A stretch of DNA of 33,844 nt from a virus, in IMG/VR virus record IMGVR_UViG_3300002514_000121, positions 1 to 33,844 of that record; one strand, given 5' to 3'. Below the pieces are notes generated by a model. That model was not told the DNA's origin, did not search any database, and was given only the letters and a program-made list of their open reading frames with translations. This document shows, in pieces, positions 1,147 to 33,844 of this stretch. Numbering within the stretch: position 1 is the first letter of the stretch; each line of letters begins with the position of its first letter. The translations under genes and the position numbers were made by a program.

Positions 1147-1165
1147 TAGTTAACGGATAAATGGC

Positions 1166-2101
1166 ATGGCTGGAATACTCAATAATAAGACACGAATAAT
1201 GGATACCATCCTGACCCTAGAGGGTCGTCGACAGATGGCAGAGGGTGAGCTGCGCATTGAGTTTGCTACATTTAGCGATGCATCAAGTTTCTATCAGGCA
1301 TCCAGTTCGATGGGTGAGGCTGATGATGCAAGTAAGCGTATCTATTTTGAGGCATGTCACCTACCACAGGATTCCATTACATTTGAAGCTGATGACTCTG
1401 GGCGGCTAATGCCATTTCCTGCCGGCGATCTTGGTATTCTATCCGGCAAGATCCTATCAGGCAGCACTTCAAAGTATTTACAGGTCGTGACTGGTACTCA
1501 ATTTGCGAGCCTGACCTCTAATCTCCTTATTTCTTCATTAGACAACTTTAAGAACCTTTATTCTATTGGTACTACTGACATATTTAGTGATACTAATACT
1601 TTTGAGATAAGCCAGAATCAGATAGCGTTTGAATTAACCGATAATGCTCCAATTGAAAGAGCAGGTGTTAAGAATATCGATATAGATGATGCAGAGGCAT
1701 TTTATCAGGATAAGAGGCTGGCGCACTTGCCTAACTATCAACACTTACCTCCAGTGAATATGCCCCCACCTAGCAATCCAGATCTTATGCATCCAATTGG
1801 TGATTATCCGAGACTGGGCCAACATCCATTCTTTTCATATGACGACCTGCAGGCTGACCTTGTCGGAAAGCCCAGTAAAATTATTCGATTCGGCCCCACC
1901 TCTAAATCTAATTCTATGTTTGTTCAGTTTTTTGAACAGGGTCCAGATAGTTTAAAAAAATTGGATGTTATTGATTTTGGAAGTTTCTTAACTGACGATG
2001 CTGATTTTCCAGAGAAGCGTATTTTTTTTGTTGGAAAAATATTTATGGATGATCAACAAAGTCCTACCTTCGTTAACCTCTTTACGTTGGTGTTTGAATA
2101 A
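1166..2101 (+). CDS. Virion structural protein with N-terminal 'ILT-GR' module
   Basis: A 311-residue protein of unknown function. The first ~40 residues (TRIMDTILTLEGRRQMAEGE, then IEFATFSD) match in pattern the N-terminus of the 235-residue protein at 10646-11353: a hydrophobic-Asp-x-hydrophobic-Leu-Thr stretch, then x-Gly-Arg, a short acidic or polar gap, and 'I-x-F-A-x-x-x-D'. The rest is acidic and mixed alpha/beta, with a Pro-rich stretch around residues 195-220. No signal peptide or membrane segment is visible. Its stop overlaps the next start by one base (TAATG), so the two are probably translated together. The start is the ATG at 1166; the ATG at 1161 is out of frame, and only a weak GGATAA lies upstream. 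Position among fibre and FN3 proteins suggests a baseplate or tail-tip component; that is inference. Confidence 0.6.
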   Translation: MAGILNNKTRIMDTILTLEGRRQMAEGELRIEFATFSDASSFYQASSSMGEADDASKRIYFEACHLPQDSITFEADDSGRLMPFPAGDLGILSGKILSGSTSKYLQVVTGTQFASLTSNLLISSLDNFKNLYSIGTTDIFSDTNTFEISQNQIAFELTDNAPIERAGVKNIDIDDAEAFYQDKRLAHLPNYQHLPPVNMPPPSNPDLMHPIGDYPRLGQHPFFSYDDLQADLVGKPSKIIRFGPTSKSNSMFVQFFEQGPDSLKKLDVIDFGSFLTDDADFPEKRIFFVGKIFMDDQQSPTFVNLFTLVFE

Positions 2102-4650: not shown

Positions 4651-4651
4651 A

Positions 4652-7600: not shown

Positions 7601-8779
7601 TTGATGGCCATGTTAAGGGAGCCTAGGTTTAAGGGGGGTGATGCAGCATCTAATCTTAAGCTAGTTACTGTTGGAATTCCTAGCGGAATGAAGGCATCAC
7701 TAAAGAGTCTTGAAATTTTAGGTGAGGACTCACCAGGTCCCGAGAAAGAGGTGGATATAATAAACATCAATGTCTTTAGGCGGGACGTGGAATTTGACGA
7801 TATAGTCTTTAAGCCAATGAGCTTTTTATTTGAGCTGTCTAGGTTTACTGACGTTAAGAGAAACAGGCTCAGGAGAAGGACGCGGTTGTATGGCACCTCT
7901 AACAGCTACAGTGCGGCTGGCGATGTTAGAACTATCGATATTCAGGTCGATGAGGATTTTAAGTGGGGCGGAGGAAACAACCTCGGAATTAGCGGCGATG
8001 CCTATGACACCATTCACACGATTGGTGAGGGCCCTGAGTATGACATGCTTACCACGACAGAAAAACATCAGATGTTTAACAATCACATCACTAGTTATTT
8101 TTTAGGAGTTTACCTGAGGCTTTTAACTGATATGGACTTTAGGGAGTCTTCGTTTTTAATAAATAATACGATGGCGGAGATGAAGGCAGACGAGAAGGAC
8201 AGGGCTCAATTTATGAAGCTGCTCCTGACAAGGGTTAAAAATGTCGCCGGCCGGCCCATTACAGTAGACCAGCTCAAGCAGTCGAGCGACGAGATCGCTA
8301 AGGCATTTAATAAGATGGGAAATAAGGACTCCTGGATCGCCAGCGCTGCTGAAAAGAATGTGTCATCCGGCCTGGGCTCACTAACCCGCAATGCAAATTT
8401 AGAGATAGCAGATGACACACTGGCATTTGTGAAGACATTTAGTCCTGATTCACTCCTTACAGGTGCTGGCGTGACTGCAAAGAGACTAGTCACACCCAAA
8501 CTGTTTGAGAGAATATTTCATCTTCCGGTTGACTTGGATGAGTTTGAAATTGATGTCGAGGCTACCCGGGCAACGCAGAGCGGATCAAAAATGCTTGACT
8601 CTGCTGGATTTAAGACACATTTAAAGGAAATGCCTGACGGTGCCCTAATGATGAAGTCACGTCCTACTAATAATGGGTATCATATTTTGAGCGAAATTTT
8701 TGTTAATATTGACACTAAATTTGAAAGCAATAAGGACGGTGAGCTGGTCAGCACTGTACCTCGAGGAGGAGCCGATTAA
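4652..8779 (+). CDS. Very large virion protein with basic, proline-rich N-terminus
   Basis: The best start is the ATG at 4652, one base after the preceding stop, giving 1375 residues. The frame is open further upstream, but those 51 codons lie inside the FN3 region of the previous gene and are rejected. Residues 1-50 are Lys/Arg/Gln-rich and probably disordered. Residues 51-90 are Pro-rich (PKPPPPPAFK, APPKPPVPT). The remaining ~1280 residues look folded and largely helical, with several Lys/Glu-rich stretches and no membrane segments or enzyme motif that I recognise. An SD-like AGGGTGG lies before the start. Size and position between two FN3-bearing genes suggest a tail, baseplate or internal virion protein. 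A tape-measure role is possible, but the sequence lacks the long uninterrupted coiled coils usual in that class. Confidence 0.6.
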   Translation: MARGKSPGGRNFSGLSQQPTGKSRRGRQKQNQKQSKKKQYKTSGKLQRKRQPDPPPRYKPPVEKTKKYPSPKPPPPPAFKAPPKPPVPTSEQFDEKMPVSTQTLPSNYNPVKLRGFADNRPEILCVTDFLPAYKRQASTRDWSRTRKILPVGEKLMVMFDLARLRDSNLKKLISALRDDEDAAKIVDKIEADYDVKIKDAIADIRALSSLFVNLETAKDALNLRKSQNKIMAALATKTGDSFEVNTYQDILEELGFSRDNINQFSNTKVLMQIVQDLSVILGNYSPSLLGIINPDRVDDDDQFELSKTIFDPKQEPMIMDNLRKLGGDSQLSGVQYHRIALRFFQDIASENVFDSVPNKIKFLLNLISKEMIISSGLGNVRTRGMLSHWGSKNQGNIFDNICGVSGDTVTDAPLGSVRALMSLMNISDRAGNTVLPFESPLTTDIDDGFVSGTEFFIDAILQGQTEFNPAPFIAFIKNVAFSGRQAEAVIADNILSLRGTWSTRARRPSSHNLFDEIAEDFKVFLTSNQGKSAWKCNKEEAQLALMALGETNIELKMLLYQYTILAGIYANTSGIRTKNTSVAYSNITLVNVRHVSDLPALKIKKYKGSGINNSFSFTDHVDPGAIADIIDAIVGSVAALLGTGKMSEMTTTDFVSGHFGGVDVISEAELRASLEDIGNSELPLQSINSFLNKQVAAANIGFSGQPAENYYIDSNRRTRFSLIPPAVLVAIVYEAYSSFAMLTGISLQSMETITTKTTEQVPDPTDLRSAGGRYITQTVINTNRRFRVKYDGTLGSAMTSGLLVTSGHAASDVATLLEKDFNSLVQRPGIKIGEEQQDALDKLAEGANTGATAINRRIHEIQAIRSALEAEENLIVSMINFIFTYFSFVVSEAKPLQELLALQRDEKGRAKRNASGGFASNMDRIRGFQRRVDSRDIFATLNPAQIALSIREGLEVQKTLQGKRRNVSAFSDQNLISSASKNMLMAMLREPRFKGGDAASNLKLVTVGIPSGMKASLKSLEILGEDSPGPEKEVDIININVFRRDVEFDDIVFKPMSFLFELSRFTDVKRNRLRRRTRLYGTSNSYSAAGDVRTIDIQVDEDFKWGGGNNLGISGDAYDTIHTIGEGPEYDMLTTTEKHQMFNNHITSYFLGVYLRLLTDMDFRESSFLINNTMAEMKADEKDRAQFMKLLLTRVKNVAGRPITVDQLKQSSDEIAKAFNKMGNKDSWIASAAEKNVSSGLGSLTRNANLEIADDTLAFVKTFSPDSLLTGAGVTAKRLVTPKLFERIFHLPVDLDEFEIDVEATRATQSGSKMLDSAGFKTHLKEMPDGALMMKSRPTNNGYHILSEIFVNIDTKFESNKDGELVSTVPRGGAD

Positions 8780-10645
8780 ATGCCAATGTCATATCCATCC
8801 CCTGCTGCTGTCTTTGTTGATATTGGTGAGGTAACCACATTTGATGCTGATTTTCACTATAATTTTTTCACGACTGATGAGCAGACCAATGATAGTGGTG
8901 AGGTACCTGATTTTTTGAGGCTTAAGAAGTCAGAGTCAATTGATGCTCGATACATCGATAACGTCAGTCGCGTCACTCCGCGATTTATTAGACTGACTTT
9001 CAAGCCGGTAAAATCCAATGAGTATTCTAAGCCACCTAATGAGTTCTTGCACCAGGACAGTCTAAGTTCCTTTTCCCGAAATTTTTCTATTAAAAAATAT
9101 TACAGTAGCATGATGTTTGAGGGAGATTTTACGGCAAATGATTACATCAACGTAGAGTTTTATGACAGTCAGATTGACAATAAGCTGTTCACGGCCGTAT
9201 CAGGCTCAGTCACAAGAATTGCTAATGTTCAAAATAGAAGAAGAAAGAAGCAGATTCGAGCCGAAATAAGCACGCTCAAAAAGCGGGCATCATCGGCAGT
9301 CGGATCGCTATTGGATGGTGCGCGTTCTCTTAATGATGTGACCCCAGATGATATTAATTCCGAGTTTATTGTCAAGTCGCTAGTTAGGTTAGATAAACTA
9401 GGTGCCAGTATCGTTGATGAGGAGAAGCAAAAGCTCCGCCGTCGAAGAAAATTTGACAGGATTAAGAATATTAAGATGAATGCCCGTGTTAACAGTGCTG
9501 TCATGGGGGATGTGGTAAGGGGCATCGTTAACTCTCCAATAGGCCTACTAGCAGATGATTTTGCTCCTCACCTTAAAACCGCCGAGAGTCTCCAGGCCCG
9601 CGCTATTGCTGGTCGCGATGGTGGTGCCCTGAGACTTTCTGATTATGAGTCAGCGGCAACGCCTATTATGGAGACAGAACTGGAGACAGACGACTTTAAT
9701 GGGCGATTTGAGCTGGTAGGATATGCTATTGAGAAGTTTGAGGTGACAGAGGCTGGTCAATTACACCAGATGGAAACTATTTTTGTTAACGATATTTCCG
9801 TGGGCTCGGTGCTGGACACAAAGGTTGCCTACGGCTCCAGGTATTTTTACTCCATTCGGACGGTGTCACTGGTCACGCTTGCATCAACTGCAGATGACTC
9901 AGAAGAGATTACCGCCTCCACTTTCATGGTGGCTTCGTCGCCTCGGACAGCAGTCACTAACTGTATTGAGGAGGTTCCGCCGCCCCCACCGGTTGACTTT
10001 AACGTGATATACGATTATCAGAACCGCCTACCTCGCTTATTTTGGAATTTTCCCGTAAACACACAACAGGATATAAAACAGTTTCAAATATTTAGAAGGA
10101 AGACCGTTAAAGATCCATTTATGCTATTGAGGGTTTATAATTTTGACGACAGTGAAATTATTACTCCCCCCGCGGAGGACATATTTGAATTTTTGGTCGA
10201 CGAGATGAAGTCTCCTAAGACTTTTTATGATGATTCGGAGTTCACGAAGGAGAGCAAGTTTATCTACGCTGTCTGCTGTATAGACGCTCACGGATACACC
10301 TCAAATTTATCTGCACAGTTTGAGATTTCGTTCGATACTTATAAAAACAGGCTCAATAAAAGGCTTATTTCTAGGTCAGGAGCCCCAAAAGCATATCCTA
10401 ACTTATACTTATTGGAAGACACGTTTGTTGACGTTATTAAAGATTCGGGTCACGATAGGATGACTGTGTATTTCGATCCGGAATTTTTGGACGTCTTTAA
10501 CGATGATGGAGAAAACTTGGGACTACTTGCAACTGACAAGAGAGACGGCAGGTATAAGGTCCAGTTTATAAATACAGATTTACAGCAATCGCAAAATTTA
10601 GATATTATTATTAACGATCTGCGAATGTCTGAGGAGAACAATTAA
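8780..10645 (+). CDS. Virion protein with FN3-like C-terminal region, baseplate/tail candidate
   Basis: A 621-residue protein starting directly after the upstream TAA, with a strong GAGGAGG at 8764-8770 inside the previous gene. The central part (residues ~150-240) is helical and basic (RRRKKQIRAE, KLRRRRKFDR). Residues ~300-400 and ~405-515 each look like beta-sandwich repeats. The second starts with a poly-Pro linker (EEVPPPPPVDF) and has the FN3-type pattern 'PRLFWNFPV', 'IKQFQIFRRK' and 'KFIYAVCCIDAHGYTS'. The layout (helical basic core, then FN3-like C-terminus) parallels the 849-residue protein two genes upstream, which suggests related jobs in the same substructure. The next gene starts directly after this stop. 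Its exact place in the virion is not determinable here. Confidence 0.62.
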   Translation: MPMSYPSPAAVFVDIGEVTTFDADFHYNFFTTDEQTNDSGEVPDFLRLKKSESIDARYIDNVSRVTPRFIRLTFKPVKSNEYSKPPNEFLHQDSLSSFSRNFSIKKYYSSMMFEGDFTANDYINVEFYDSQIDNKLFTAVSGSVTRIANVQNRRRKKQIRAEISTLKKRASSAVGSLLDGARSLNDVTPDDINSEFIVKSLVRLDKLGASIVDEEKQKLRRRRKFDRIKNIKMNARVNSAVMGDVVRGIVNSPIGLLADDFAPHLKTAESLQARAIAGRDGGALRLSDYESAATPIMETELETDDFNGRFELVGYAIEKFEVTEAGQLHQMETIFVNDISVGSVLDTKVAYGSRYFYSIRTVSLVTLASTADDSEEITASTFMVASSPRTAVTNCIEEVPPPPPVDFNVIYDYQNRLPRLFWNFPVNTQQDIKQFQIFRRKTVKDPFMLLRVYNFDDSEIITPPAEDIFEFLVDEMKSPKTFYDDSEFTKESKFIYAVCCIDAHGYTSNLSAQFEISFDTYKNRLNKRLISRSGAPKAYPNLYLLEDTFVDVIKDSGHDRMTVYFDPEFLDVFNDDGENLGLLATDKRDGRYKVQFINTDLQQSQNLDIIINDLRMSEENN

Positions 10646-11353
10646 ATGGGGTGGTTGCAGGGAGATACTAATAACATTATCGTGGACGCCGTTTTGACCG
10701 ATCTCGGTCGACAGTTCCTTTCTAGGAATGATGGCTCTTTTTCTATCGTTAAGTTTGCGCTTGGCGATGATGAGGTGGACTACCTCACAATCCAGAAGTA
10801 CGGCCGGACGGTCGGAAAGGAAAAGATTGAGAAGAACACGCCCGTCCTCGAGGCACAGACAAACGGTAACCTGGGGCAGAAGTTTAGACTGGTAAGTCTC
10901 TCTAATCCAAACCTGCTTAGGCTGCCAACACTGGAGCTTACAGGACCAAGCCTCACTAGTAATGTGCTGTCGCTGGGTCGTAACACGTCCAAGTCGTCCA
11001 CGCTGACCCTGACCCAGACCATACAGAACGAGGAGTCGATTGACGTCGAGCTTCGAGACCAGGCGTTTATCGTGGAGCTCAGCAACCTGTTCCTACAGGT
11101 GGAAGGTAACACTCCCGATACGGTGGATGCCAGCCAGCGTGCCACCTATCTCCTCACTAGGGACGCCGGCGAGACAGATGCCGGAGGCTCTATCCTGACA
11201 TTTACAACACAGGTCAAGGCGATTACCAACGCACAGTTCACAACATTTGGGACAACACAGGACAAGAATATAATCCGGACATTTGTCAAGATTACAGGCA
11301 TCCAAAGCGGTGCTGTCAAGGAGTTCCAGGTTAACGTGAGCAAGGCTCTGTAG
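10646..11353 (+). CDS. Virion structural protein sharing an N-terminal module with the 1166-2101 product
   Basis: A 235-residue protein. The ATG follows the upstream TAA directly, with GAGGAG at 10631-10636 as ribosome-binding site. The N-terminus (NNIIVDAVLTDLGRQFLSRN, then SIVKFALGDDEVDY) is of a type I recall from predicted structural proteins of large environmental phages, and it matches in pattern the start of the protein at 1166-2101. The middle (residues ~95-165) is Ser/Thr/Leu-rich and beta-like, and the C-terminus ends in short beta strands (VKITGIQSGAVKEFQVNVSK). There are no catalytic motifs, signal peptide or membrane segments. Codon choice is richer in C- and G-ending codons than in the neighbouring large genes, consistent with a highly expressed structural protein. 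A baseplate, tail-tube or connector role is plausible but unproven. Confidence 0.6.
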   Translation: MGWLQGDTNNIIVDAVLTDLGRQFLSRNDGSFSIVKFALGDDEVDYLTIQKYGRTVGKEKIEKNTPVLEAQTNGNLGQKFRLVSLSNPNLLRLPTLELTGPSLTSNVLSLGRNTSKSSTLTLTQTIQNEESIDVELRDQAFIVELSNLFLQVEGNTPDTVDASQRATYLLTRDAGETDAGGSILTFTTQVKAITNAQFTTFGTTQDKNIIRTFVKITGIQSGAVKEFQVNVSKAL

Positions 11354-11375
11354 CGATTAACCGGAGAGATATTAG

Positions 11376-12683
11376 ATGGCCACATTTAAAGAAATTAGCG
11401 CGAATGACATTAAGACTGCCAGGTCATTCCTAAACCAGCTCGTCGATGTTATTCAGGAGGATATCTCCGGTTCTAACACTCGTAGAAAGTATCAGGTCTT
11501 TGTCACCGGCGGTGTTGGTCCCGGAGTGACCTCATCACTCTACCAGACGGTCTACGACCAGAACTTCTCCCTCCAGACGGCCAATCCAATTATGGATATC
11601 AGTGTCGGCCTGTATGTCTCAGGTAATACAGTCCAGGTTATTAAGACAGGTGAGGACACGTCCGGCAAATTACTGTTTCCTTCCACATCGCTGATGATGC
11701 GCGAGAAGATTGACATCTATCGACAGTTCGCGCAGGTGCTGCTTGGCGATGCCGGAGCTCAGTTCGTGGCGCCGTTTAACTCTACAGACACCGGCACCGC
11801 CTCCTCAGACCTCAATGATTCAATTAATGAGGCAATGTTCCTGAATGTCAAGCGCCTCTTCTCCCGTGACCAGATCAAGCGTGAGACTTTCGCCATGAAG
11901 TTCTACCAGTCAGCATCCAAGGGTGATTCGTTCAACTGCGGATATCGTCTTGATAAGTCGGAGAATGGTAAAAATCTAACTGAGACTTCCTTATCCGGAT
12001 CTGTTATTTACACTGATGTCGGCTCTGCAGCTAATAAGTTGACGACTTATGGGGGCAATGTCTCCAACATTGTCGACTCTGCCAACACGGCAAGGACAGT
12101 CGGTTTGATGTTTAATGACTACGGTGCCGTTGTTTTAGACATGGCGAAAATAATATCCGGCTCACAGCATGTTTCTGGGATTATTAATGCGATGAACGCT
12201 AATGCACCCATCGCGGGAGTGTCTGCAGGTAAAACATTGATAGGAAATCCAGGCGGCACCCCAGCAACCGGTGAGACAGTATCCGGCTTATCAGGAAATC
12301 CAAATGCAAAATTCATTCCTGATTTTATGACATCGGGTTCCATAGATGATATCGTGGATCACATGGCATCATGTCGATTCCAGTCAGGAACACTGACGGC
12401 GATGACCTTCCAGAATATTACTAACATAAACTCTAGCCTGATATTCTGTCGGGCGACAGCTGACGAGTTTAACTACTCCAGCAATAACACATTTACCGAT
12501 ACGAACAATAGGATCGTGGTCATTGACGAGGGGCAAGAGGAGACGCAGCGGGCATTCTCCTTCGTGACGTCTGTCGGACTCTACGATGCCAACGATAACC
12601 TATTGGCGGTTGCAAAGCTTTCGAGGCCTGTCGAGAAGAACGATGAGAAGGATATTACGTTCCGAATTCGACTTGATTTCTAA
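11376..12683 (+). CDS. Abundant-type virion structural protein, unknown class
   Basis: A 435-residue protein with a good ribosome-binding site (GGAGAG, 11363-11368). The N-terminus (FKEISANDIKTARSFLNQLV) looks helical. Long Gly/Ser/Thr/Asn-rich beta regions follow, and the protein ends with a conserved-looking strand pair (SFVTSVGLYDANDNLLAVAK, then ITFRIRLDF). The same final '-[RK]LDF' tail is found at the end of the next gene product. No nucleotide-binding or hydrolase motif is visible. Codon use is biased like that of the capsid gene, suggesting high expression. A sheath-like or tail-surface role was considered, but I cannot match the sheath fold by eye. The next gene starts six bases after the stop. 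Confidence 0.6.
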   Translation: MATFKEISANDIKTARSFLNQLVDVIQEDISGSNTRRKYQVFVTGGVGPGVTSSLYQTVYDQNFSLQTANPIMDISVGLYVSGNTVQVIKTGEDTSGKLLFPSTSLMMREKIDIYRQFAQVLLGDAGAQFVAPFNSTDTGTASSDLNDSINEAMFLNVKRLFSRDQIKRETFAMKFYQSASKGDSFNCGYRLDKSENGKNLTETSLSGSVIYTDVGSAANKLTTYGGNVSNIVDSANTARTVGLMFNDYGAVVLDMAKIISGSQHVSGIINAMNANAPIAGVSAGKTLIGNPGGTPATGETVSGLSGNPNAKFIPDFMTSGSIDDIVDHMASCRFQSGTLTAMTFQNITNINSSLIFCRATADEFNYSSNNTFTDTNNRIVVIDEGQEETQRAFSFVTSVGLYDANDNLLAVAKLSRPVEKNDEKDITFRIRLDF

Positions 12684-12689
12684 AATGTC

Positions 12690-15146
12690 ATGGCTATATT
12701 TAAGGTCTTCAAGCATGATAGCGAGCAGTTTACACTAGAGACGAATCCGACACGGACATTCTCCTCTAGCTCTGCTGGGGCTACAGGCTCAGTCTACGTC
12801 TTCCCTCGCCGGTCTCCGGCTGAGCGGGAAACGTCCCGACTTTCTCCTTTTAATGCTAACGACTTCGAGGAGAATAGCCTCGATGCCATGTTGCAGAATG
12901 CCGTTAGTGGCGCCCGAGCAGGAACTGATATTTCTGCCCAGATGAGCCAGTACCTCGACACTGCAGGCTCTCAGTCGTTGTCCTCCAGAAAGTACAAGAC
13001 ACAGACAATATACAGGTTTGAGCCGTCATTCACGTTTACCGCCGACACCCTGAGGAAAAATGTCACCCGGCAGATTCTGTTCCCGTTTTATAGGGCACAG
13101 TACGACGACCTGCAGTACGCCTACACCAATTATCACTGCCTCAACTTCTTTACGGCATCCACAGTCCCTAGCGACTCTGCTCTCTTGTACCCCAATACAG
13201 CATCCTACAGCTCCGAGGCCACCTACGCAAGTGGAAACTACTCCCTGACCGGTGCTTTTACTTTCGACTTCTACATTAACCCAAAGTACACATGTGACAA
13301 GAACGAGACGGAGTTCAAGGCTGGAACTATTTTTCACCTTTCCTCGACATATGCAGTATCACTAGTCACAGGCTCCATGAAGCATCCCGACGGCCGGCCG
13401 AGCAGTTTCAGGATAATGCTACAGCTAAGTCACTCAGCGGACCAGCCACCGTCGACAGTGGACACCAGCGTCTTAAATAATGACAGGACCTATCCAGACG
13501 ACCTTATTTTCCTGTCTGACAATAACACTCTCCTGCAGAATAACTGGCATCACATTGGTATTAGGTGGGGAACCAATAGTATCAGTGAAGGATCTGGGTC
13601 ATTTTTTATTGATGGCGTTCGCCGCGGTAAGTTTAATGTGCCTTCTGCTAGTATTGCTCCTGCATCATTTGGGGGCATCCAGGGCGATCCTGATGCACTC
13701 ATCGTCGGTAACTACTATAATTCCCCTAATGTGGTCGGAAAGTTACAGGCGGGCTATTTTGCCTATCTTAATACATCGGCAGGATTTCCAGATCAGGGCC
13801 CATCATTTAGGGACGGCGTGTCTACACTGTTTACCGAGGCTGCGGCTGGATCTGCATACCAGTACGGTCCATCGGCATCGCTTGATCACCCGTTAAATGC
13901 AGAATTACACGAGCTAAAGATATATAATACGTTTAGGTCTGTGGCACAGATTAAGGCTTCGATGACAGCAGGCCCGACAAACTTAAGGGACCTTGTTTTT
14001 TATGCACCTCCATTCTTTACGCGGGAGTCGCCCACAAGGAGCGTCCAGGCAGGCTTCACGGGAAACGAGGGAGGTGTCCCGCAGACGCCTTTCTTTGGAA
14101 TTGATTCATCTACAGATGATCCGTTTAATGTCGCGCTTTCATTTGGAGTTGGAGGCCATGACATTAACGTGGAGAACTTTGGTCGTGACTTTGCCAACAA
14201 TGTCTATCCTAGGTGGCTGGGCCTTACAGGCTCTACTATCACAACCACCAGCGAACTGCTGACATGCAACCAGTTTCTTTTTGCCACTGGAACTGTCAGG
14301 AAGCGAAATCTAACCGTCCTACCTTGTGATAATGGACTATTCAAGCCTAACTTTGGCCTGCTGCTGACCGGCGCTTACACGTTACATCCTAAGCCTGGTC
14401 ATGTTATGGACAAATATGTTAATGACCTCGGGGTCCTAGACCTAAGTCTTATCACGCTGACCGAGCTGATCCCCACCTCGACTCTCCGGCCAGGTCTTAT
14501 TCCTGAGTCTGGATCTATTTTTGACAGTATCGTTGGGGCTGCACCTGATAACTTGGGAGTGGATCCCGGTGAGGTCCTGACAATATTCCAGCGAACGAGG
14601 GACAACTCCTCCAATGAGGTGGCATTTTTTGATATTAGTAACCTGTATTACGGAAATGCTATAAAGTCGGGCACGTTTTCGATTACAGATTCTTCCATGA
14701 CAGGCTCAGGTGGAAAAATCTCAATGAGGCTTCGGGACAATGGTCGCGGTGGCCTGTACCGAGCTGATTCGTTGACGCCACACGCACAGTGGAATAATGT
14801 CGGAAGCCTGTTGTATGATGAAGGCCTGGCTGTCATCAAGAGTCCTAATATTCCATTCTTTGGACGTGATCAGTTTTCAATAACACTTCGAGGTACTGAG
14901 AATATTCATACTCTTAAGTTCTCTGTGCTAGCACCACCAGGGCAGCTTAACTCGTCTTCTAACCCACAGTACACGCCGCTGTCAGCATCACTGAACGCAA
15001 ATGATGCAAATTCTGAATTTGTCTATATTGATGGAATTAATTTCCATGATGAAAACTTAAATGTTATTATGAAAACCAAGTTTGCCCAGCCAATACTTAA
15101 GCGGTTTGGCGATAAGATTTTATTCAAGTCGAAATTAGATTTTTAA
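12690..15146 (+). CDS. LamG/concanavalin-A-like domain virion protein
   Basis: An 818-residue protein. Residues ~180-430 fit a laminin-G / concanavalin-A-like jelly roll: 'YSLTGAFTFDFYINPKY', then 'AGTIFHLSS', then 'NNWHHIGIRWG', then 'GSFFIDGVRRGKF', then 'ELHELKIYNTFRS'. This is the usual order of strands in LamG-type lectin domains, which bind carbohydrates or surface proteins. Residues 1-150 form a separate N-terminal module, possibly for virion attachment, and residues ~430-818 are beta-rich. The protein ends in 'DKILFKSKLDF', echoing the C-terminus of the upstream 435-residue protein. The ATG at 12690 has no clear SD; the ATG at 12685 is out of frame. Likely a tail- or capsid-surface adhesion protein. 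It is the last gene of the tail block; a nuclease gene follows after 29 bases. Confidence 0.7.
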   Translation: MAIFKVFKHDSEQFTLETNPTRTFSSSSAGATGSVYVFPRRSPAERETSRLSPFNANDFEENSLDAMLQNAVSGARAGTDISAQMSQYLDTAGSQSLSSRKYKTQTIYRFEPSFTFTADTLRKNVTRQILFPFYRAQYDDLQYAYTNYHCLNFFTASTVPSDSALLYPNTASYSSEATYASGNYSLTGAFTFDFYINPKYTCDKNETEFKAGTIFHLSSTYAVSLVTGSMKHPDGRPSSFRIMLQLSHSADQPPSTVDTSVLNNDRTYPDDLIFLSDNNTLLQNNWHHIGIRWGTNSISEGSGSFFIDGVRRGKFNVPSASIAPASFGGIQGDPDALIVGNYYNSPNVVGKLQAGYFAYLNTSAGFPDQGPSFRDGVSTLFTEAAAGSAYQYGPSASLDHPLNAELHELKIYNTFRSVAQIKASMTAGPTNLRDLVFYAPPFFTRESPTRSVQAGFTGNEGGVPQTPFFGIDSSTDDPFNVALSFGVGGHDINVENFGRDFANNVYPRWLGLTGSTITTTSELLTCNQFLFATGTVRKRNLTVLPCDNGLFKPNFGLLLTGAYTLHPKPGHVMDKYVNDLGVLDLSLITLTELIPTSTLRPGLIPESGSIFDSIVGAAPDNLGVDPGEVLTIFQRTRDNSSNEVAFFDISNLYYGNAIKSGTFSITDSSMTGSGGKISMRLRDNGRGGLYRADSLTPHAQWNNVGSLLYDEGLAVIKSPNIPFFGRDQFSITLRGTENIHTLKFSVLAPPGQLNSSSNPQYTPLSASLNANDANSEFVYIDGINFHDENLNVIMKTKFAQPILKRFGDKILFKSKLDF

Positions 15147-16729: not shown

Positions 16730-19700
16730 ATGAGAAAAGAACTAAGCGTTATTCACGTCGCCGATATCCATTGGCGAGGACTAACAAGGCATGAGGAGTA
16801 TCGCCAGGCCTTCCAGGATTTATTCAAAAAGGCGTCGGCTTTAAATCCAGATATTATATATGTGGGCGGTGATATCGTGCACAATAAGACACAGGGTATT
16901 TCGCCTGAGCTTATCGATAGCTTAAATTGGTGGTTTTCATCGCTGGCCAAGATTTGTGATGTTCATGTTATCCTAGGAAATCATGATGGTATTCTCCATA
17001 ATAAGCGTCGCCAGGACGCCATTTCTCCTATCCTGTCGGCTTTAAATAACGACAGGATTCACCTCTATAAAAAGAGTGGTATCTACCCTACGGGAATACC
17101 TGGATTTAACTGGGCTGTCTTTTCTTGTTTCGACGAAGAGGGCTGGGAGGATGTTGCGCCTATTCGAGGAGATATTAATATTGCCCTGTATCATGGTGCA
17201 GTTCGCGGGTCTTTGACCGACATCAACTGGGAGGTAGAGGGAGAGGCAGATATTAGCTTCTTTGACGACTACGAATTCGCCCTTCTTGGTGATATTCATA
17301 AGCCACAATTTCTAAACGAAGAAAAGACAGTTGCGTACTGTGGCAGCACGGTCCAGCAGAACTACGGTGAGGACATGGAGAAGGGCTTCATGTTTTGGAA
17401 GATAAGGACAGCTAGCGATTTCGATGTAAGTTTTCATCCGCTAGAACCGGTTCATCCATTCGTTACAATAGAGTGGCAAGGAAATGTCGCAGAGACACTC
17501 AAGTTGTGCCGAGCATTTCCGGTCGGATCTAGGTTTCGAATAAAGGCATCCGATCCAATACCCCAGGTCGAAGTACTACAGCTTCAGAATGAACTTAAGG
17601 ATTCCCATAAGGCGAATGAGGTCGTCTTTAAGTACGATGATAATTTTGACACCAATGTGATCAGTACTGAGTCTGTTTCACTTTTTAAGAAGGACCTGCG
17701 TGACCCGGCCACACACCTATCCCTATTTAAGGAGTTCCTGGGAGACGACTATCACACTGACAAGGAATGGAATAAAATATCTGACATGTTGGTGGAGTAC
17801 ATTAGGGCCGCGTCCAGGGAGGACGATGTTGCAAGAAATGTCAAGTGGTCTATTAACAAGATTGAGTTTGACAATATTTTCTCTTTCGGCGCGGGCAATG
17901 TGGTTGACTTTACTAAGAATAGTGGCATTACCGGTATATTCGCCCCTAACGCCTCTGGCAAGTCATCAATAGTGGGGGCGATCATGTATAACCTGTTCAA
18001 CACAACAGATCGCGGCTCTATTAAGAATCTTTATGTTATTAATGGAAGGAAAAATTTTTGTAAGGTCTGTTCCCATATAACTGTCAATACAGAAAGATTT
18101 AGGATCGAGAGGCAGACGGTTAGGAACGAGAATCGCCGTGGACAACAGCACGGCATCACCCATCTTAACCTTTATAATATTAAGGATGAGGACAATATTA
18201 TTGATAAGACAGGTGAACAGCGGACAATGACTGAGAAGACAATTCGAAAGATGATCGGAACGGCCGATGACTTTCTGCTGACATCATTCGCCTCTCAGGG
18301 CGAGATGAATAGGTTTATCCAGGAGGGAGCTACACATCGCAAGAGAACGCTGGCTAAGTTTTTGGATCTTACTATATTTGAGAAGCTTTTTGAATATGCC
18401 AAGAATGACTCTGCGACAATTAAGCTTCAGCTAGAGTCTGCACCAGATCGTGATTGGGATAGTATTCTTACGGAGAAGCGAAACGAGAGAAAGCGAGTCA
18501 ATGCTAAAATAAAGAAACTCCAGGACGAGCTGATTAAAAATCGAGCCTCATTGTTTGACCTCAAGACAAGGCTGAAGTCGATGGACAACAATGATATTAT
18601 AACACAGGCTGATGTCGACCGGATGAATGTCCTTGTGGCGAATATTGACAAGTTATTACTTGAAAAGGGTAATGTGCTGCAGGACAACAAGGACACCATT
18701 GTGCAGATGCAGGTAAAATTATTAAAGATAAGGGATGTCAAGAAGCAGTTCCCTATTGACACGTTACGGGAGGAGCTTGAGGAGCAAGTCCTTTTAAGGG
18801 AGTCCATTGTCAAGGTGAAGCACTCCTATGAGAAGGAGGCTTTAACTTTTAACAGTCGCAAGAAGTCAATTAAGATACTCCAGGATGTTCCGTGTGGCGA
18901 TAGTTTTCCAAGCTGCAAGTTTATAAAGAACTCCCATGAGAATAAGTCCCTGGTCGAGAAGCAGGAGCATGTCATAGGCGATATGATGGAGAAGCTGGAG
19001 ACTCTTGAGGCCAATTTAGGTGACTTTATTTCCAGGGGAATCGAGGAAAAGATTTCCAAGTATGATGTTATGCTCAAAAAGGAGGGCGAATACCTCAACT
19101 TAATTTCCCTCAACGAGCTCGAGTGTAAGTCGCTGGAAATTGAAAAGGAAGGCCTCCACGTCAGGTCTAAAAAAATGCATGACGACCTTGCAGAGATAAA
19201 GTCGAAGGTCTGCGACTCTAACGTTGATTCTGAGATTGTAAATCTCAGGTCACGTATCGACTCCCTTAATGACCAGATCAACACTATGGATGCAAACAGG
19301 ATATCGCTGGCATCTCTACTGGGAGAGAACAAGGTATATGTGGAGAAGATTAAAAAGGAGAAGACACTGTATGCAGGCCTACGATCCCAGTGGAATACCT
19401 ACCAGAGTTTTATGAAGGCAGTCTCTAAGAAGGGAATACCGGCGCAGATAATTCACTCTCAGCTTCCTATTATTAACACTGAGATCTCTAAGATTTTAAA
19501 CGGTGTAGTCGACTTTACGGTTGAGTTTGATGCCACCGCATCAAACAGCATGGACATCTTTATCGACTACGGGGACACTAGGCGGATTATTGAGCTTGCC
19601 AGCGGCATGGAAAAGATGATAAGCTCACTTGCTATTCGAGTTGCGCTTCTTAATGTGTCATCACTTCCCAAACCTGACATGCTGATTATCGATGAGGGGT

Positions 19701-19873
19701 TTGGCGTTCTTGATGAAAACAAGGTGACAGCCTGCAACCAGCTACTGGTTACTCTTAAGAAGTTTTTCAGGAACATACTAGTAATCACCCACGTGGATGC
19801 CATTAAGGATGTGGCTGATAACATACTGGAGATTAATAAGAACGGAATGGACTCACATGTCACAACAGACTGA
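16730..19873 (+). CDS. Single-chain Mre11-Rad50 (SbcD-SbcC; gp47-gp46) fusion
   Basis: A 1047-residue protein joining two normally separate subunits. Residues 1 to ~350 are an Mre11/SbcD metallophosphoesterase: D12 and H14 (ADIHWRG), D48 (VGGDIVHNK), N84-H85-D86 (GNHDG), H155 (YHGAVRG) and H190 (LGDIHKPQ). From about residue 374 a Rad50/SbcC ATPase begins, with Walker A near 402-412 (GIFAPNASGKSS), a long Lys/Glu-rich coiled coil (~560-900) broken near 722-729 by a hook-like CGDSFPSC, a signature-like 'ASGMEKMISSLA' near 955, and Walker B near 982-990 (DMLIIDEGFGVLDE). The complex processes DNA ends for recombination-dependent replication; in T4, genes 47 and 46 are separate. No SD precedes the start. 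The 3' end overlaps the next gene by 17 bases. I see no frameshift or stop between the halves. Confidence 0.9.
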   Translation: MRKELSVIHVADIHWRGLTRHEEYRQAFQDLFKKASALNPDIIYVGGDIVHNKTQGISPELIDSLNWWFSSLAKICDVHVILGNHDGILHNKRRQDAISPILSALNNDRIHLYKKSGIYPTGIPGFNWAVFSCFDEEGWEDVAPIRGDINIALYHGAVRGSLTDINWEVEGEADISFFDDYEFALLGDIHKPQFLNEEKTVAYCGSTVQQNYGEDMEKGFMFWKIRTASDFDVSFHPLEPVHPFVTIEWQGNVAETLKLCRAFPVGSRFRIKASDPIPQVEVLQLQNELKDSHKANEVVFKYDDNFDTNVISTESVSLFKKDLRDPATHLSLFKEFLGDDYHTDKEWNKISDMLVEYIRAASREDDVARNVKWSINKIEFDNIFSFGAGNVVDFTKNSGITGIFAPNASGKSSIVGAIMYNLFNTTDRGSIKNLYVINGRKNFCKVCSHITVNTERFRIERQTVRNENRRGQQHGITHLNLYNIKDEDNIIDKTGEQRTMTEKTIRKMIGTADDFLLTSFASQGEMNRFIQEGATHRKRTLAKFLDLTIFEKLFEYAKNDSATIKLQLESAPDRDWDSILTEKRNERKRVNAKIKKLQDELIKNRASLFDLKTRLKSMDNNDIITQADVDRMNVLVANIDKLLLEKGNVLQDNKDTIVQMQVKLLKIRDVKKQFPIDTLREELEEQVLLRESIVKVKHSYEKEALTFNSRKKSIKILQDVPCGDSFPSCKFIKNSHENKSLVEKQEHVIGDMMEKLETLEANLGDFISRGIEEKISKYDVMLKKEGEYLNLISLNELECKSLEIEKEGLHVRSKKMHDDLAEIKSKVCDSNVDSEIVNLRSRIDSLNDQINTMDANRISLASLLGENKVYVEKIKKEKTLYAGLRSQWNTYQSFMKAVSKKGIPAQIIHSQLPIINTEISKILNGVVDFTVEFDATASNSMDIFIDYGDTRRIIELASGMEKMISSLAIRVALLNVSSLPKPDMLIIDEGFGVLDENKVTACNQLLVTLKKFFRNILVITHVDAIKDVADNILEINKNGMDSHVTTD

Positions 19874-29400: not shown

Positions 29401-31302
29401 ATGAAAAAGTTTACGCTTGAACAACTCACTGAGGGAATTCGCTCGCGAAACCTCGGTGGTGAGAGCAAGAGGCTTGTCGAGAAGTGGAGCCGTACTGGAC
29501 TCCTGCGTGGCCTCGAGGGCACAGGACGTGAGAACATGTCCCGTCTTCTTGAGAACCAGGCAGCTGAACTCCTTCGAGAGTTCAACTCTGTCTCGACTGG
29601 TGGAGCGGCTAACACTGCTTCGGGTGACCTCAGGGGTTTCACCAACATCGCATTCCCGATCGTTCGTCGGGTCTTCGGTGGTCTGGTGGCCAATGAGCTG
29701 ATCTCGGTGCAGCCGATGAGCCTCCCTTCCGGCCTCCTGTTCTATCTTGATTACACATATGGCAACGCTGTTGGTGGTGATACCACCGACGCCGGTGTCG
29801 CTGGTTCCGCCGCTGTTTACAGCAAGGGCCAGTCAATCTACAACAACCCAGCTGGCGCAGGCGTCCGCTCCGGTTCGTTGGCTGCCGGTGGTATGTACGA
29901 CCTGGTCGGTGCGGGATTCTCCCGTGTCCAGTCCGGTTCTACAGCCGTCGCCGTCACCAACGTTACTTCCGGTGCGTTCGTTAGCAATGCTACCACACTG
30001 ACAGCAGGACAGACCATCGGGACTCTCGCAGAGATGTCCGGTACAAACGGTCGTTATCTTAGCTTCGACCCGCAGCTCGCTGCCGCGCTCGATGCCAACG
30101 ATTTTGACCTGGCCTTTATCTCGGTCCCAACTGCTAACATTACAGCCGCTCCCGGACTCGGCCTTGGCTCCGCTGTCGACCTCACGCAGGTCGACCAGAT
30201 TGCCCTTTACGGCGGTCTAACAGGTGCCACGGCTTGGGGCGCTGCCTATCAGGCAGGCGCGGTCTTTAACCTGCGTCGTCATAATCAGCGTGTCACAGAT
30301 TCCTCTGGTGTCATTACCGATGCTCCGCTGAATGGTAACTCCATTCTTATGGTTGTTAAGATGGCTAACGGTGGTGGAATTGCCGCTCCGTCGGCACTGT
30401 CGATTTCGGCAGTCATCGGTGACTCCCTGAATGCTGACGCATCAGGCGCTGGTGAGGCTTCCACGTTGGTGATTCCTTCCTTTGAGTCGAACTTCGGGAC
30501 TAACCCGAAGCCGGTCATCCCCGAGATCGACATTAAGGTTGAGTCCATTGCGGTTACCGCACAGACCCGTAAGCTCCGTGCTCGCTGGTCGCCAGAACTC
30601 GCCCAGGACTTGAACGCTTATCACAGCCTTGACGCTGAGGTGGAGCTGACACAGATCCTGTCCGAGCAGGTTGCGCTTGAGATTGACCGTGAGATCCTTA
30701 ACGATCTCCTGAGTCAGGCTAACGGTGCTAACCTGTACTGGTCGCGTGCTCCTGGTAAGTTTGTCCGCAAGGAGAGTGGTGCTGAGGTCTCGAAGAGCTC
30801 GAGCACTGCTCCCGGTCCGGCATTTACCGGTACCGTCCGCGAGTGGTATGAGACGTTGGTCGAGACTATTATCGACTGCGCCAACACCATTCACCGCAAG
30901 ACCCTTCGAGGTTCGGCGAACTTTATCGTCGTCTCCCCGGATGTCGCTACCCTGTTGGAGGCCTCGGTCTATTACCGTCCGAGCTACAGCGTGGACGGTG
31001 ACGGTCAGGTCAGCTCCCCGTTCAACCTGGGAGCCGAGAAGGTCGGTACTCTGAGCAACCGCTTTACGGTCTACAAGGATCCTTACTTCCCAAGGAATAA
31101 GATCCTGGTCGGCTACAAGGGCGGCAGCTACCTGGAGACAGGATACATCTACGCTCCGTACGTGCCACTCATCGTCACTCCGACGATATTCGCCCCCGAG
31201 GACTTCACACCTCGTAAGGGTGTGATGACACGCTACGGTAAGAAGATGGTTCGTTCCGACTTCTACGGTACTGTGACCTGCATGGACATGGATATTATCT
31301 AA
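29401..31302 (+). CDS. Major capsid protein (T4 gp23-like)
   Basis: A 633-residue HK97-fold capsid subunit with a good SD (TTGGAG, 29385-29390). Family blocks: the N-terminal pro-region, then 'NIAFPIVRRVFGGLVANELI' (~82-101), 'SLPSGLLFYLDYTYG' (~106-120), 'VTAQTRKLRARWSPE' (~385-399), 'DLNAYHSLDAEVEL', and the C-terminal 'GVMTRYGKKMVRSDFYGTV'. A candidate maturation site is L-R-E60 (also L-L-E51), comparable to T4 cleavage after Glu65. It is longer than T4 gp23 (521 residues), with extra Gly/Ala/Ser-rich beta sequence in the middle (~120-370). Codon use is strongly biased towards C-ending codons, as expected for the most abundant protein. A strong terminator follows. Confidence 0.95.
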   Translation: MKKFTLEQLTEGIRSRNLGGESKRLVEKWSRTGLLRGLEGTGRENMSRLLENQAAELLREFNSVSTGGAANTASGDLRGFTNIAFPIVRRVFGGLVANELISVQPMSLPSGLLFYLDYTYGNAVGGDTTDAGVAGSAAVYSKGQSIYNNPAGAGVRSGSLAAGGMYDLVGAGFSRVQSGSTAVAVTNVTSGAFVSNATTLTAGQTIGTLAEMSGTNGRYLSFDPQLAAALDANDFDLAFISVPTANITAAPGLGLGSAVDLTQVDQIALYGGLTGATAWGAAYQAGAVFNLRRHNQRVTDSSGVITDAPLNGNSILMVVKMANGGGIAAPSALSISAVIGDSLNADASGAGEASTLVIPSFESNFGTNPKPVIPEIDIKVESIAVTAQTRKLRARWSPELAQDLNAYHSLDAEVELTQILSEQVALEIDREILNDLLSQANGANLYWSRAPGKFVRKESGAEVSKSSSTAPGPAFTGTVREWYETLVETIIDCANTIHRKTLRGSANFIVVSPDVATLLEASVYYRPSYSVDGDGQVSSPFNLGAEKVGTLSNRFTVYKDPYFPRNKILVGYKGGSYLETGYIYAPYVPLIVTPTIFAPEDFTPRKGVMTRYGKKMVRSDFYGTVTCMDMDII

Positions 31303-31328
31303 GTCCTGCTGTAGGATAAAAACTAGAG

Positions 31329-31364
31329 ACGGGTCGTCCTTCGGGGCGGCCCGTTTTTATTTTT
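31329..31364 (+). terminator. Rho-independent terminator after the capsid gene
   Basis: An 11-base-pair stem (ACGGGTCGTCC at 31329-31339 with GGGCGGCCCGT at 31344-31354, two G-U pairs) is closed by a C(UUCG)G tetraloop and followed by TTTTTATTTTT. It starts 26 bases after the capsid stop and separates the head operon from the FtsZ-like gene. Confidence 0.93.
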
Positions 31365-31444: not shown

Positions 31445-31589
31445 CTACAGTGCATACCTTTTGTGTAAAAAATAATGAACTATGGCCTCGACAGTTAAAA
31501 ATTTATTTCATGATAACAAGAGACCGACAGCTGCACCCGTAAAAGGTGATGATCAATCCCAAAAGGGAGAGAACCAGGAGAAAATAATA

Positions 31590-32654
31590 ATGACGACAGA
31601 AGATGAAATTTTGACCGCTGACGATGATTTTGATTTTGTAAGCCATTACGGCGATACGGTCGAAGAACAAGGTGATGATTTACTTCCTGATAATACTGCT
31701 GGTAGCGCTATCTCCTGCGGATTTATTGGCGTCGGCGGCGGCGGCGGCAAGATGGCCAAGGCCTTTATCGATGTCGGGTTTAATAAGTCCGTACTTGTGA
31801 ACACCACAGAGAAGGACCAGCCTAATGGTGTTGATGCTAACCACTTTCTCCTAATTCCAGGAGCTGACGGTGTTGGCAAGGATGTTGTCCTAGGCCAGAA
31901 GGTGCTCACTGAAAACAGCACGGTGGTTGAAGACGCCCTTAAGAATCGAATTGGAAACATTGACTGGCTATTCGTCCTGGCCGGCGGCGGCGGAGGAACT
32001 GGGTCAGCCTGCACGGCACTTCACGGGTCTTTTGAGAGGTACATGAAGTCATCCGGGGCAGCTGGTAATGTTGTCTATATAGTGTCAGCTCCAAGCGCAC
32101 AGGAGCTGCTCAACCCTACAATAAAGAAGAACTATAAGGCGCTTGTCAAGGACATTGCCGATCATCCTCACATAATCTTGGACAATGAGAGGCAACTGCA
32201 GCTTCTTCGTGGCAAGGTCGGCGTTCTTAATATGTTCCCGCTAGCTAACAAGTCCTTTGCTAAGATGTTGGCACAGGTGTTTAGGTTGGCCGGTGCCAGC
32301 TCACCCATCCAGGCATTTGACACCAAGGACCTCGAGCGATGCCTTCGAGAGCCAGGTCGAATCTTTCTTGGGACCACAGTGGTTACTGATCCAACAACCA
32401 CTGGGCTCGGCAGTAAGATATATCAGCAGAGCATTAAAAATTCTCCATGTCCAACGCCGCCCAATTCAGTTAGCGTGGGCTCTCTCTTACTGTGCGTTAC
32501 CGAAGAGATGGCCTCAGATCCAGCGATCTCCAATCACATGGAGTCGGCTGTCGCCTACGTTGGCGGCCGCTCCGACGCCCTATTTTCAGGAATTTATATT
32601 AGAAACGGCCTCCCAGGCCTCGTGGCAATCGTTCTTTTAGGAGGATTGAACTGA
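31590..32654 (+). CDS. FtsZ/tubulin-family GTPase, phage-encoded
   Basis: A tubulin-superfamily GTPase closer to FtsZ than to eukaryotic tubulin. Start preferred at the ATG at 31590 (AGGAG at 31576-31580), giving 354 residues; an in-frame ATG at 31482 without SD would add 36. Residues in the short form: nucleotide loop 'CGFIGVGGGGGKMAKAF' (~43-59), 'VLVNTTEKDQ' (~68-77), the tubulin signature as 'AGGGGGTGSA' (131-140), 'DNERQLQLL' (~198-206) matching FtsZ 'NDKLL', a central helix 'LNMFPLANKSFAKML', and a T7 loop 'AFDTKDL' (242-248), whose D244 and D247 match the catalytic pair in FtsZ 'NVDFADV'. The C-terminal domain ends at 'GLVAIVLLGGLN', where FtsZ has 'RVTVIATGF'. The FtsZ linker and C-terminal anchor peptide are absent. 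The N-terminus is acidic. Likely forms filaments; its role in infection is unknown. Confidence 0.87.
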   Translation: MTTEDEILTADDDFDFVSHYGDTVEEQGDDLLPDNTAGSAISCGFIGVGGGGGKMAKAFIDVGFNKSVLVNTTEKDQPNGVDANHFLLIPGADGVGKDVVLGQKVLTENSTVVEDALKNRIGNIDWLFVLAGGGGGTGSACTALHGSFERYMKSSGAAGNVVYIVSAPSAQELLNPTIKKNYKALVKDIADHPHIILDNERQLQLLRGKVGVLNMFPLANKSFAKMLAQVFRLAGASSPIQAFDTKDLERCLREPGRIFLGTTVVTDPTTTGLGSKIYQQSIKNSPCPTPPNSVSVGSLLLCVTEEMASDPAISNHMESAVAYVGGRSDALFSGIYIRNGLPGLVAIVLLGGLN

Positions 32655-32709: not shown

Positions 32710-33844
32710 ATGCCAGATTTTCAAAATACTCTGAATCCGACTCCCTTTGGTTTTTTTAACCAGGAGTCGGATTTTCAGTCTGAAGCAGACAACATGATTA
32801 CCTTTGTCAAGCGAAAGCTTGGCGATGATGTGCTCTCTGTCGAGCTGACAAAAAAGCAGATCTGGGCCTGTTTTGAGGAGTCATTTTTAGAGTACGGCTC
32901 GATTATAAATCAGTATCAGGCGAAGTCACAGATGCTGGACTTTTTAGGGACGCCATCTGGATCGCTACTGTCAGGTTCAGAGCAGAAGTATCCACGTCAA
33001 ACACTTGAATTTTTAAAGCGTCAAGCTGAGCCCTACTCATCTGAAGGTGGTGTCGGAGGTTCGCAAAATCCTGTTTCCGGTGCTATCGCACTTACTAATG
33101 GTAAGCAGGATTATGACATCTACAATGATCTCATGACAACGCCTGGAGGCTCTACCACGTTGGTCAGCACGCAGACATCAGGTCGACGGACTAAGATGAA
33201 GATTCAGGAGATTTATCACTTCTCACCTTCCGCCGCTTATCGATTTTTTGACTCTACGTCAGCGATCAATTACCTTAACAATGAATTTTCTTTTGAGTCA
33301 TTCACGCCAGAGAGCATCTTTTATGTGCTTCCTGTATTTGAGGATATATTAAGGGCCGGACAGATGGATGTCTCGCAGCGTGTCCGTAGATCTAATTACA
33401 GTTATAGGATCGAGGGCACCAAGCTGAGGATTTTTCCGGCTCCAACCACTCCGCCAAATGCTCCTAACACTCGTTATCTGTGGGTCAGGGTTGTTTTAAA
33501 CGCACCGGATCCACTTAATCCGCCTTACACAGATGACACCATTTATGGAGTCTCAAACCTCTCTAACATTCCTTTTGGAAATCTTCAGTATGATCGAGTT
33601 AATAGTGTAGGTAGGCAGTGGGTTAGACAGTTTGGGCTGGCACTAGCAAAGGAATTGCTTGGACTGATCAGGTCAAAGTTTGGAAATGTGCCCATTCCTA
33701 ATTCTGAGCTGACGCTGAATGGTGACAATCTTGTGACGCAGGGCCGAGAGGATCAGGAGAAATTAAGGACGCAGCTTTCCGAGATGCTTGAGTCAATGAC
33801 ATATGATAAGCTCTTGGAGATTCAGGCAGCTACATCTGAAAATA
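32710..33844 (+). CDS. Conserved virion/neck-type protein, cut by window end
   Basis: An open frame of 378 codons running off the end of the window, so the 3' end is missing. The ATG at 32710 has AAGGGG upstream (32699-32704). The N-terminal segment (NMITFVKRKLGDDVLSVELT, KKQIWACFEESFLEYGSIIN) is a helical module I associate with neck or head-completion proteins of T4-like environmental phages. Further conserved-looking blocks are 'YPRQTLEFLKRQAEPYSSEG', 'KIQEIYHFSPSAAYRFFDST', 'INYLNNEFSFESFTPES' and 'FYVLPVFEDILRAGQ'. Placed after the capsid and FtsZ-like genes, it plausibly continues the head/neck module. The neck assignment is inference; virion nature is likelier than any enzymatic role. 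Confidence 0.68.
   Translation, partial: MPDFQNTLNPTPFGFFNQESDFQSEADNMITFVKRKLGDDVLSVELTKKQIWACFEESFLEYGSIINQYQAKSQMLDFLGTPSGSLLSGSEQKYPRQTLEFLKRQAEPYSSEGGVGGSQNPVSGAIALTNGKQDYDIYNDLMTTPGGSTTLVSTQTSGRRTKMKIQEIYHFSPSAAYRFFDSTSAINYLNNEFSFESFTPESIFYVLPVFEDILRAGQMDVSQRVRRSNYSYRIEGTKLRIFPAPTTPPNAPNTRYLWVRVVLNAPDPLNPPYTDDTIYGVSNLSNIPFGNLQYDRVNSVGRQWVRQFGLALAKELLGLIRSKFGNVPIPNSELTLNGDNLVTQGREDQEKLRTQLSEMLESMTYDKLLEIQAATSEN

Follow-up and report, generated by a model that had tools for sequence, protein, structure and literature searches.

Predicted tubulin/FtsZ-type GTPases form a separate family in large T4-type phages

The window, meaning the whole stretch of DNA analysed here, is a 33.8-kb virus record from IMG/VR (33,844 nucleotides). 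Near its end, a gene for a putative tubulin/FtsZ-like GTPase lies on the + strand between a gp23-type major capsid gene and a neck-protein gene, with the following features.

29401-31302, + strand: gp23-type major capsid protein, the upstream neighbour (PF07068 E 1.1e-76, phrog_138 E 2e-71)
31324-31359, + strand: terminator hairpin in the interval between the capsid and tubulin genes (-31.9 kcal/mol for the folded stretch, z -5.2)
31482-32654, + strand: tubulin/FtsZ-like GTPase by predicted fold, long form (390 aa, ATG at 31482, open frame throughout)
31576-31580, + strand: AGGAG, a ribosome-binding-like site for the internal start
31590-32654, + strand: probable short form (354 aa) from an internal ATG, with AGGAG ahead of the start
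31623-31655, + strand: conserved N-terminal tail motif DDFDFVSHYGD, residues 48-58 (F50 nearly invariant, FDF consensus)
31728-31751, + strand: T1 glycine loop GVGGGGGK, residues 83-90 (K90 in 81/81)
31983-32006, + strand: T4 loop with the tubulin signature GGGGGTGS, residues 168-175 (G170-S175 invariant)
32316-32336, + strand: T7 catalytic loop FDTKDLE, residues 279-285 (D280 and D283 both 81/81)
32710-33843, + strand, running off the window: neck/head-tail adaptor-like protein (Ad2), the downstream neighbour (phrog_211 E 4e-11)

These flanks agree with a sequence-only reading of the same DNA, which had put the gene between a gp23-like capsid gene and a virion gene, here that of the neck protein. 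The same reading had begun the gene at 31590; that position is a conserved internal in-frame ATG with AGGAG ahead of it, but the frame opens earlier, at the ATG at 31482. The terminator hairpin at 31324-31359 recurs in L001 and L017, and a shorter hairpin is found in L033. Other T4-type genes in the window encode a RuvC-like resolvase, a primase, an SbcCD-like nuclease, a terminase, a portal protein (phrog_213) and a prohead protease (phrog_207). T4 late-promoter-like TATAAATA occurs at ~1.7 times the chance frequency in the window, and none was found just upstream of the tubulin gene. Positions 16730-19873 hold a single 1047-aa ORF that appears to be a fusion of an SbcD-like part (N-terminal phosphoesterase) and an SbcC-like part (C-terminal), a layout also seen in relatives, e.g. 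L238:2286-5420. Several large ORFs (849, 1426, 621, 435 and 818 aa) in positions 1-15146 gave no PHROG match or a negligible one.

Phmmer with the single window protein retrieved FtsZ from the PDB at E 4.7e-6, a profile of 60 homologues retrieved it at E 4e-10, and Pfam Tubulin was matched at E 1e-4, under its curated cut-off. An AlphaFold model built with 79 homologues (pLDDT 88.3, pTM 0.82) predicted the full two-domain tubulin fold, with GTPase domain, H7 and C-terminal domain; confidence was mostly >95 for residues ~70 to 390, and residues 1-60 were poorly ordered. This model superseded an earlier job with 10 close homologues, in which the N-terminal domain alone was modelled (pLDDT 53). 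The top PDB structure matches were all TubZ, CetZ or FtsZ, aligned over residues 74-390. VIA-align Z was 32.5 for TubZ 4ei7 (309 residues, rmsd 2.3), 31.9 for CetZ2, 31.4 for TubZ-Bt, 28.9 for c-st TubZ and about 28 for FtsZ, and Foldseek with the predicted structure gave E 2.7e-19. Structure prediction, proposed as a check by the sequence-only reading, thus returned a tubulin-like fold and not one of another kind. Given the FtsZ matches by PDB phmmer and profile, the Pfam Tubulin match and the full predicted tubulin fold, the loop and T7 motifs are not chance matches. As judged from sequence and model, the window ORF encodes a complete tubulin/FtsZ-superfamily GTPase, its activity being predicted.

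The loops GVGGGGGK (83-90) and AGGGGGTGS (167-175) and the pair D280/D283 align with FtsZ G20-N24, G103-T110 and D209/D212, respectively. The GGGTG[ST] signature and the T7 acidic residues were present in 81/81 non-redundant homologues, and the T1, T3 and T4 glycines, N107, E208 (FtsZ E138), N235 (FtsZ N165), D280 and D283 were invariant or nearly so across the 81 sequences. The glycine-rich loop, tubulin signature and two T7 aspartates picked out by the sequence-only reading are therefore present, aligned with FtsZ and invariant in homologues. Family-specific swaps include K90 for FtsZ N24 (81/81) and T/S/A for FtsZ N207. The window protein stops at the last core strand and has no C-terminal tail. 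The core is under purifying selection, with a median dN/dS of 0.038 (25 pairs).

The flexible tail is instead N-terminal, and its portion before the DFDF motif was predicted by AlphaFold to be disordered. A long N-terminus, opening with M-A/G/P-S-S/T or close to it, was found in 43/81 non-redundant members, and in 42/43 of these long forms an internal in-frame ATG stands ahead of the DFDF motif. A 4-base Shine-Dalgarno match preceded 38/42 internal ATGs versus 15/43 first ATGs; for comparison, the counts were 55/463 for core ATGs and 163/400 for neighbouring gene starts. The contrast is somewhat inflated, because any one internal ATG was accepted where several existed and K/E-rich codons favour Shine-Dalgarno matches. 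Since the leader motif and the internal methionine are both recurrent, the two starts probably give two isoforms, of which one has a basic 'MASxxK' leader and the other lacks it, and the ATG at 31590 may be a genuine second start.

In one scan of IMG/VR, relatives were encoded by 363 stretches, of which the best 80 were listed, and ~263 homologous ORFs were taken from IMG/VR. The full-length proteins among them form 157 clusters at 99% identity and 100 at 95%, so that the family comprises >150 distinct proteins, on contigs of uncultured phages. Identity within the family is about 50% or more (lowest pairs ~47-50%), phage G aside. When the window protein was searched against 50,697 phage records, no match was found at E 1, and the only cultured-phage relative detected was Bacillus phage G gp138 (hhalign E 2e-12).

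A gp23-type capsid gene was found in 21 of the 22 tubulin-carrying contigs examined (45-293 kb), several of which are 200-293 kb long. The capsid proteins of the compared contigs are 42-79% identical to that of the window and therefore form one capsid clade. Where checked, the family belongs to large T4-type (gp23) phages; family, fold and gp23 context thus bear out that a T4-type phage genome here encodes a GTPase of the tubulin/FtsZ type. In the reverse direction, only 1 of the 17 other contigs (30-273 kb, many of them short fragments) retrieved by a capsid search carries a tubulin gene, and a 273-kb contig is among those without it. A universal gene of the gp23 phage clade was accordingly rejected, and this patchy distribution indicates that the tubulin is accessory rather than essential. 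Each carrier contig has one tubulin copy; a second was looked for in these contigs and not found. Chimallin, the nuclear shell protein, was detected in 0/22 contigs with a positive phiKZ control, the contigs being possibly incomplete and the window just 34 kb. RNA polymerase beta' was uninformative as a phiKZ-type marker, because the phiKZ control itself had no score. Three of the homologous contigs fell into bins of Flavobacteriales MAGs, which carry an FtsZ of their own; this is a hint of Flavobacteriales as hosts, but a weak one because MAG binning can take in viral contigs.

The tubulin gene follows gp23 in the window type, lies between the portal and protease genes in L043 and stands between SbcCD and terminase in L121. 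Three lineages therefore have it amid genes for the head or for packaging: after gp23 in the window, in L043, and before terminase in L121. Elsewhere it lies between two small genes (L013) or near PhoH (L009 and L055). The capsid-tubulin distance ranges from tens of kb to >100 kb in several contigs and is ~100 kb in G015 and G017. A universal capsid neighbourhood was rejected, as many relatives carry the tubulin gene tens of kb from the capsid gene; this also weakens the argument that the sequence-only reading drew from capsid adjacency. No direct link to capsids holds for the family as a whole, because other lineages place the tubulin gene far from head genes. Eight context classes require 8 changes on both the tubulin and the capsid tree (minimum 7), and tubulin and capsid distances are correlated (Mantel r 0.67, 0 of 2000 permutations). 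These results suggest that the tubulin gene descended mainly vertically, with relocation. Capsid adjacency is lineage-specific, and the gene has been relocated repeatedly.

Other arrangements of head and tail genes were seen in the same contigs. At L012:8280-9170 and in relatives, one sub-lineage has a sulfotransferase-like gene between the capsid and tubulin genes. At L001:10109-16291, and also in L002, L003 and L012, the neck genes are followed by two adjacent tail-sheath genes of ~1,030 and 1,010 aa. L292 and L294, in the jumbo contigs G015 and G017, each have two differing gp23-type capsid genes side by side.

In a tree built without CetZ, BtubAB and eukaryotic tubulins, the window family formed one clade with 100/100 support and a stem length of 1.75 changes per site. 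The FtsZ clade (100/100) included the FtsZ of two Flavobacteriales MAGs and left the window family out, and PhuZ formed a separate 100/100 clade. Host FtsZ on a misassembled contig, the outcome against which the sequence-only reading had proposed a phylogeny, is thus ruled out: there are >150 distinct proteins on many contigs, in a clade of their own, with the MAG FtsZ apart. The best tree put the family beside TubZ with weak support (83/59), and AU tests rejected none of FtsZ (p 0.30), PhuZ (p 0.11) and phage G (p 0.13) as sister group, so that a firm placement beside FtsZ, PhuZ, TubZ or phage G is supported by neither tree nor AU tests. The proposed greater closeness to FtsZ, over TubZ or PhuZ, found no support: FtsZ has the best raw sequence scores, but by structure TubZ and CetZ come out no lower than FtsZ, and the AU tests reject neither FtsZ nor PhuZ.

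We consider it somewhat probable that the protein assembles into filaments driven by GTP, which would organise the replication or assembly of the phage in the manner of PhuZ but with no protein nucleus involved. PhuZ centres the phage nucleus and carries capsids (PMC7950403, PMC13282480), and is itself accessory, being missing from a third of chimalliviruses (PMC10299810). In the proposed mechanism, the 310-residue core would bind GTP in the T1-T6 pocket, and the two T7-loop aspartates of the neighbouring subunit would trigger its hydrolysis; with these aspartates supplied between subunits, GTP-dependent, turning-over protofilaments would be expected in the infected cell. A likely adaptor would be the N-terminal tail, which is predicted to be disordered and carries the DFDF motif; it would couple the filament to cargo or lateral partners and stand in for the C-terminal tails of FtsZ, TubZ and PhuZ. 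Such filaments might place genomes in position, or help heads and DNA to meet. We infer GTP hydrolysis and dynamic filaments from the behaviour of the superfamily, and the isoforms, cargo and role are inferred as well. In three lineages the neighbouring head genes are in keeping with late use alongside capsids, although other lineages differ. The patchy distribution counts against this reading, as do K90 in place of FtsZ N24 and T/S/A in place of FtsZ N207.

The same fold could instead serve interference with host division, with the phage tubulin co-assembling with, capping or competing with FtsZ, or titrating its partners, so that division is blocked and the infected cell enlarges. Phage proteins that target FtsZ are known, and the shared superfamily, the intact longitudinal-interface loops, the best sequence matches to FtsZ and the three homologous contigs in Flavobacteriales MAG bins with their own FtsZ would all be in keeping with such a role. 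We regard it as unlikely, however: identity to FtsZ is only ~20%, too low for ready co-polymerisation, the protein lacks the C-terminal conserved peptide through which FtsZ binds FtsA, ZipA and further partners in division, and the catalytic site is under a strong constraint that a simple poison would not need.

A TubZ-type partition motor, segregating phage genomes in a plasmid-like or pseudolysogenic state, would agree with the highest structural scores, which are those of TubZ, with the weakly supported (83/59) position beside TubZ, and with phage G gp138, the sole detectable cultured-phage relative, having plasmid TubZ-like relatives. This is quite improbable in view of the gene's surroundings: directly upstream in the window stands the capsid gene and no TubR-like small gene, iteron-like tubC repeats flanking the gene were not found, and a partner conserved across contexts, upstream or elsewhere, was sought without success. 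As a structural part of the virion or prohead, or a factor in its assembly, the protein would use GTP binding as an assembly switch and not for dynamic filaments. The head and packaging genes that surround it in three lineages speak for this, but we hold it to be highly improbable, as other lineages place the gene apart from head genes, no tubulin is present in a 273-kb contig whose capsid gene is related, and the catalytic T7 residues are invariant.

Filaments that organise replication or assembly are thus the reading preferred here. A fuller version is tentative and, in our judgement, possible at less than even chance: gp23 phages with no recognisable nucleus would have their own tubulin cytoskeleton, with an N-terminal adaptor tail and two isoforms, whose filaments position genomes or join heads and DNA. 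Our results suggest that many large, mostly uncultured T4-related phages build internal filaments of their own and do so with no 'phage nucleus', the structure to which viral tubulins have been linked until now. A separate, strongly constrained family of this kind would show that phage cytoskeletons need no nuclear shell. With it the tubulin tree gains a deep branch, and whether a T4-like phage positions replication or assembly with filaments becomes a testable question.

Phage tubulins as such are already known, from nucleus-forming phiKZ relatives and TubZ partition systems, and databases already apply the label FtsZ to further proteins of uncultured phages. Among marine jumbo phages, one survey described tubulin as unique to the phiKZ-like cluster (PMC9123017), and two distinct representatives of jumbo-phage tubulins have been spoken of (PMC7824862). 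As far as we searched the open-access literature, a gp23-phage tubulin family without chimallin is apparently undescribed.

FtsZ gave the best sequence matches (PDB E 4e-10, TIGR00065 E 2e-6) and shares the catalytic loops, with Z ~28, but the TIGR00065 (FtsZ) cut-off was not reached (27.3 bits versus 295.2), the FtsZ C-terminal linker and conserved peptide are missing from the window protein, and K90 replaces FtsZ N24. CetZ (Haloferax CetZ2, 4b45) reached Z 31.9 with 24% identity over 291 residues, a kinship judged by structure alone because the tree contained no CetZ sequence. The closest viral predicted structures were BFVD A0A6J5RW92 (Foldseek E 4e-23) and A0A8S5UFG9 (7e-17), from uncultured phages and annotated as FtsZ or cell division protein; at 16-17% identity they represent other phage tubulin branches and not close members by sequence.

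Structural similarity was highest to TubZ of the TubZRC system (PDB 4ei7, 2xka, 3v3t; Z 28.4-32.5), whereas identity is 16-19% and the window protein has no TubZ C-terminal extension. Several plasmid TubZ genes and phage G gp138 have a small gene directly upstream, unlike the window gene. Bacillus phage G gp138 ('putative FtsZ-like cell division protein') shares the DNE and FDxxDL motifs with the window protein at ~20% identity, but has a C-terminal extension and no N-tail, and it groups weakly (89/76) with a plasmid TubZ-like protein. At L090:3683-5110 (phage G gp137-gp138), a 99-aa gene directly precedes FtsZ-like gp138; because of this upstream gene and the plasmid TubZ-like relatives, gp138 looks like part of a TubRZ partition pair.

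PhuZ (phiKZ/201phi2-1 group, phrog_4733) is likewise a phage-encoded tubulin/FtsZ-superfamily protein of large phages that keeps both T7 aspartates. A comparison of phrog_4733 with the window protein gave no hit at E 0.1, and phiKZ PhuZ finds 179 matches in the 50,697 phage records whereas the window protein finds none. Chimallin occurs in PhuZ phages and was not detected in the 22 window-family contigs, and the tail, C-terminal in PhuZ, is N-terminal in the window family.
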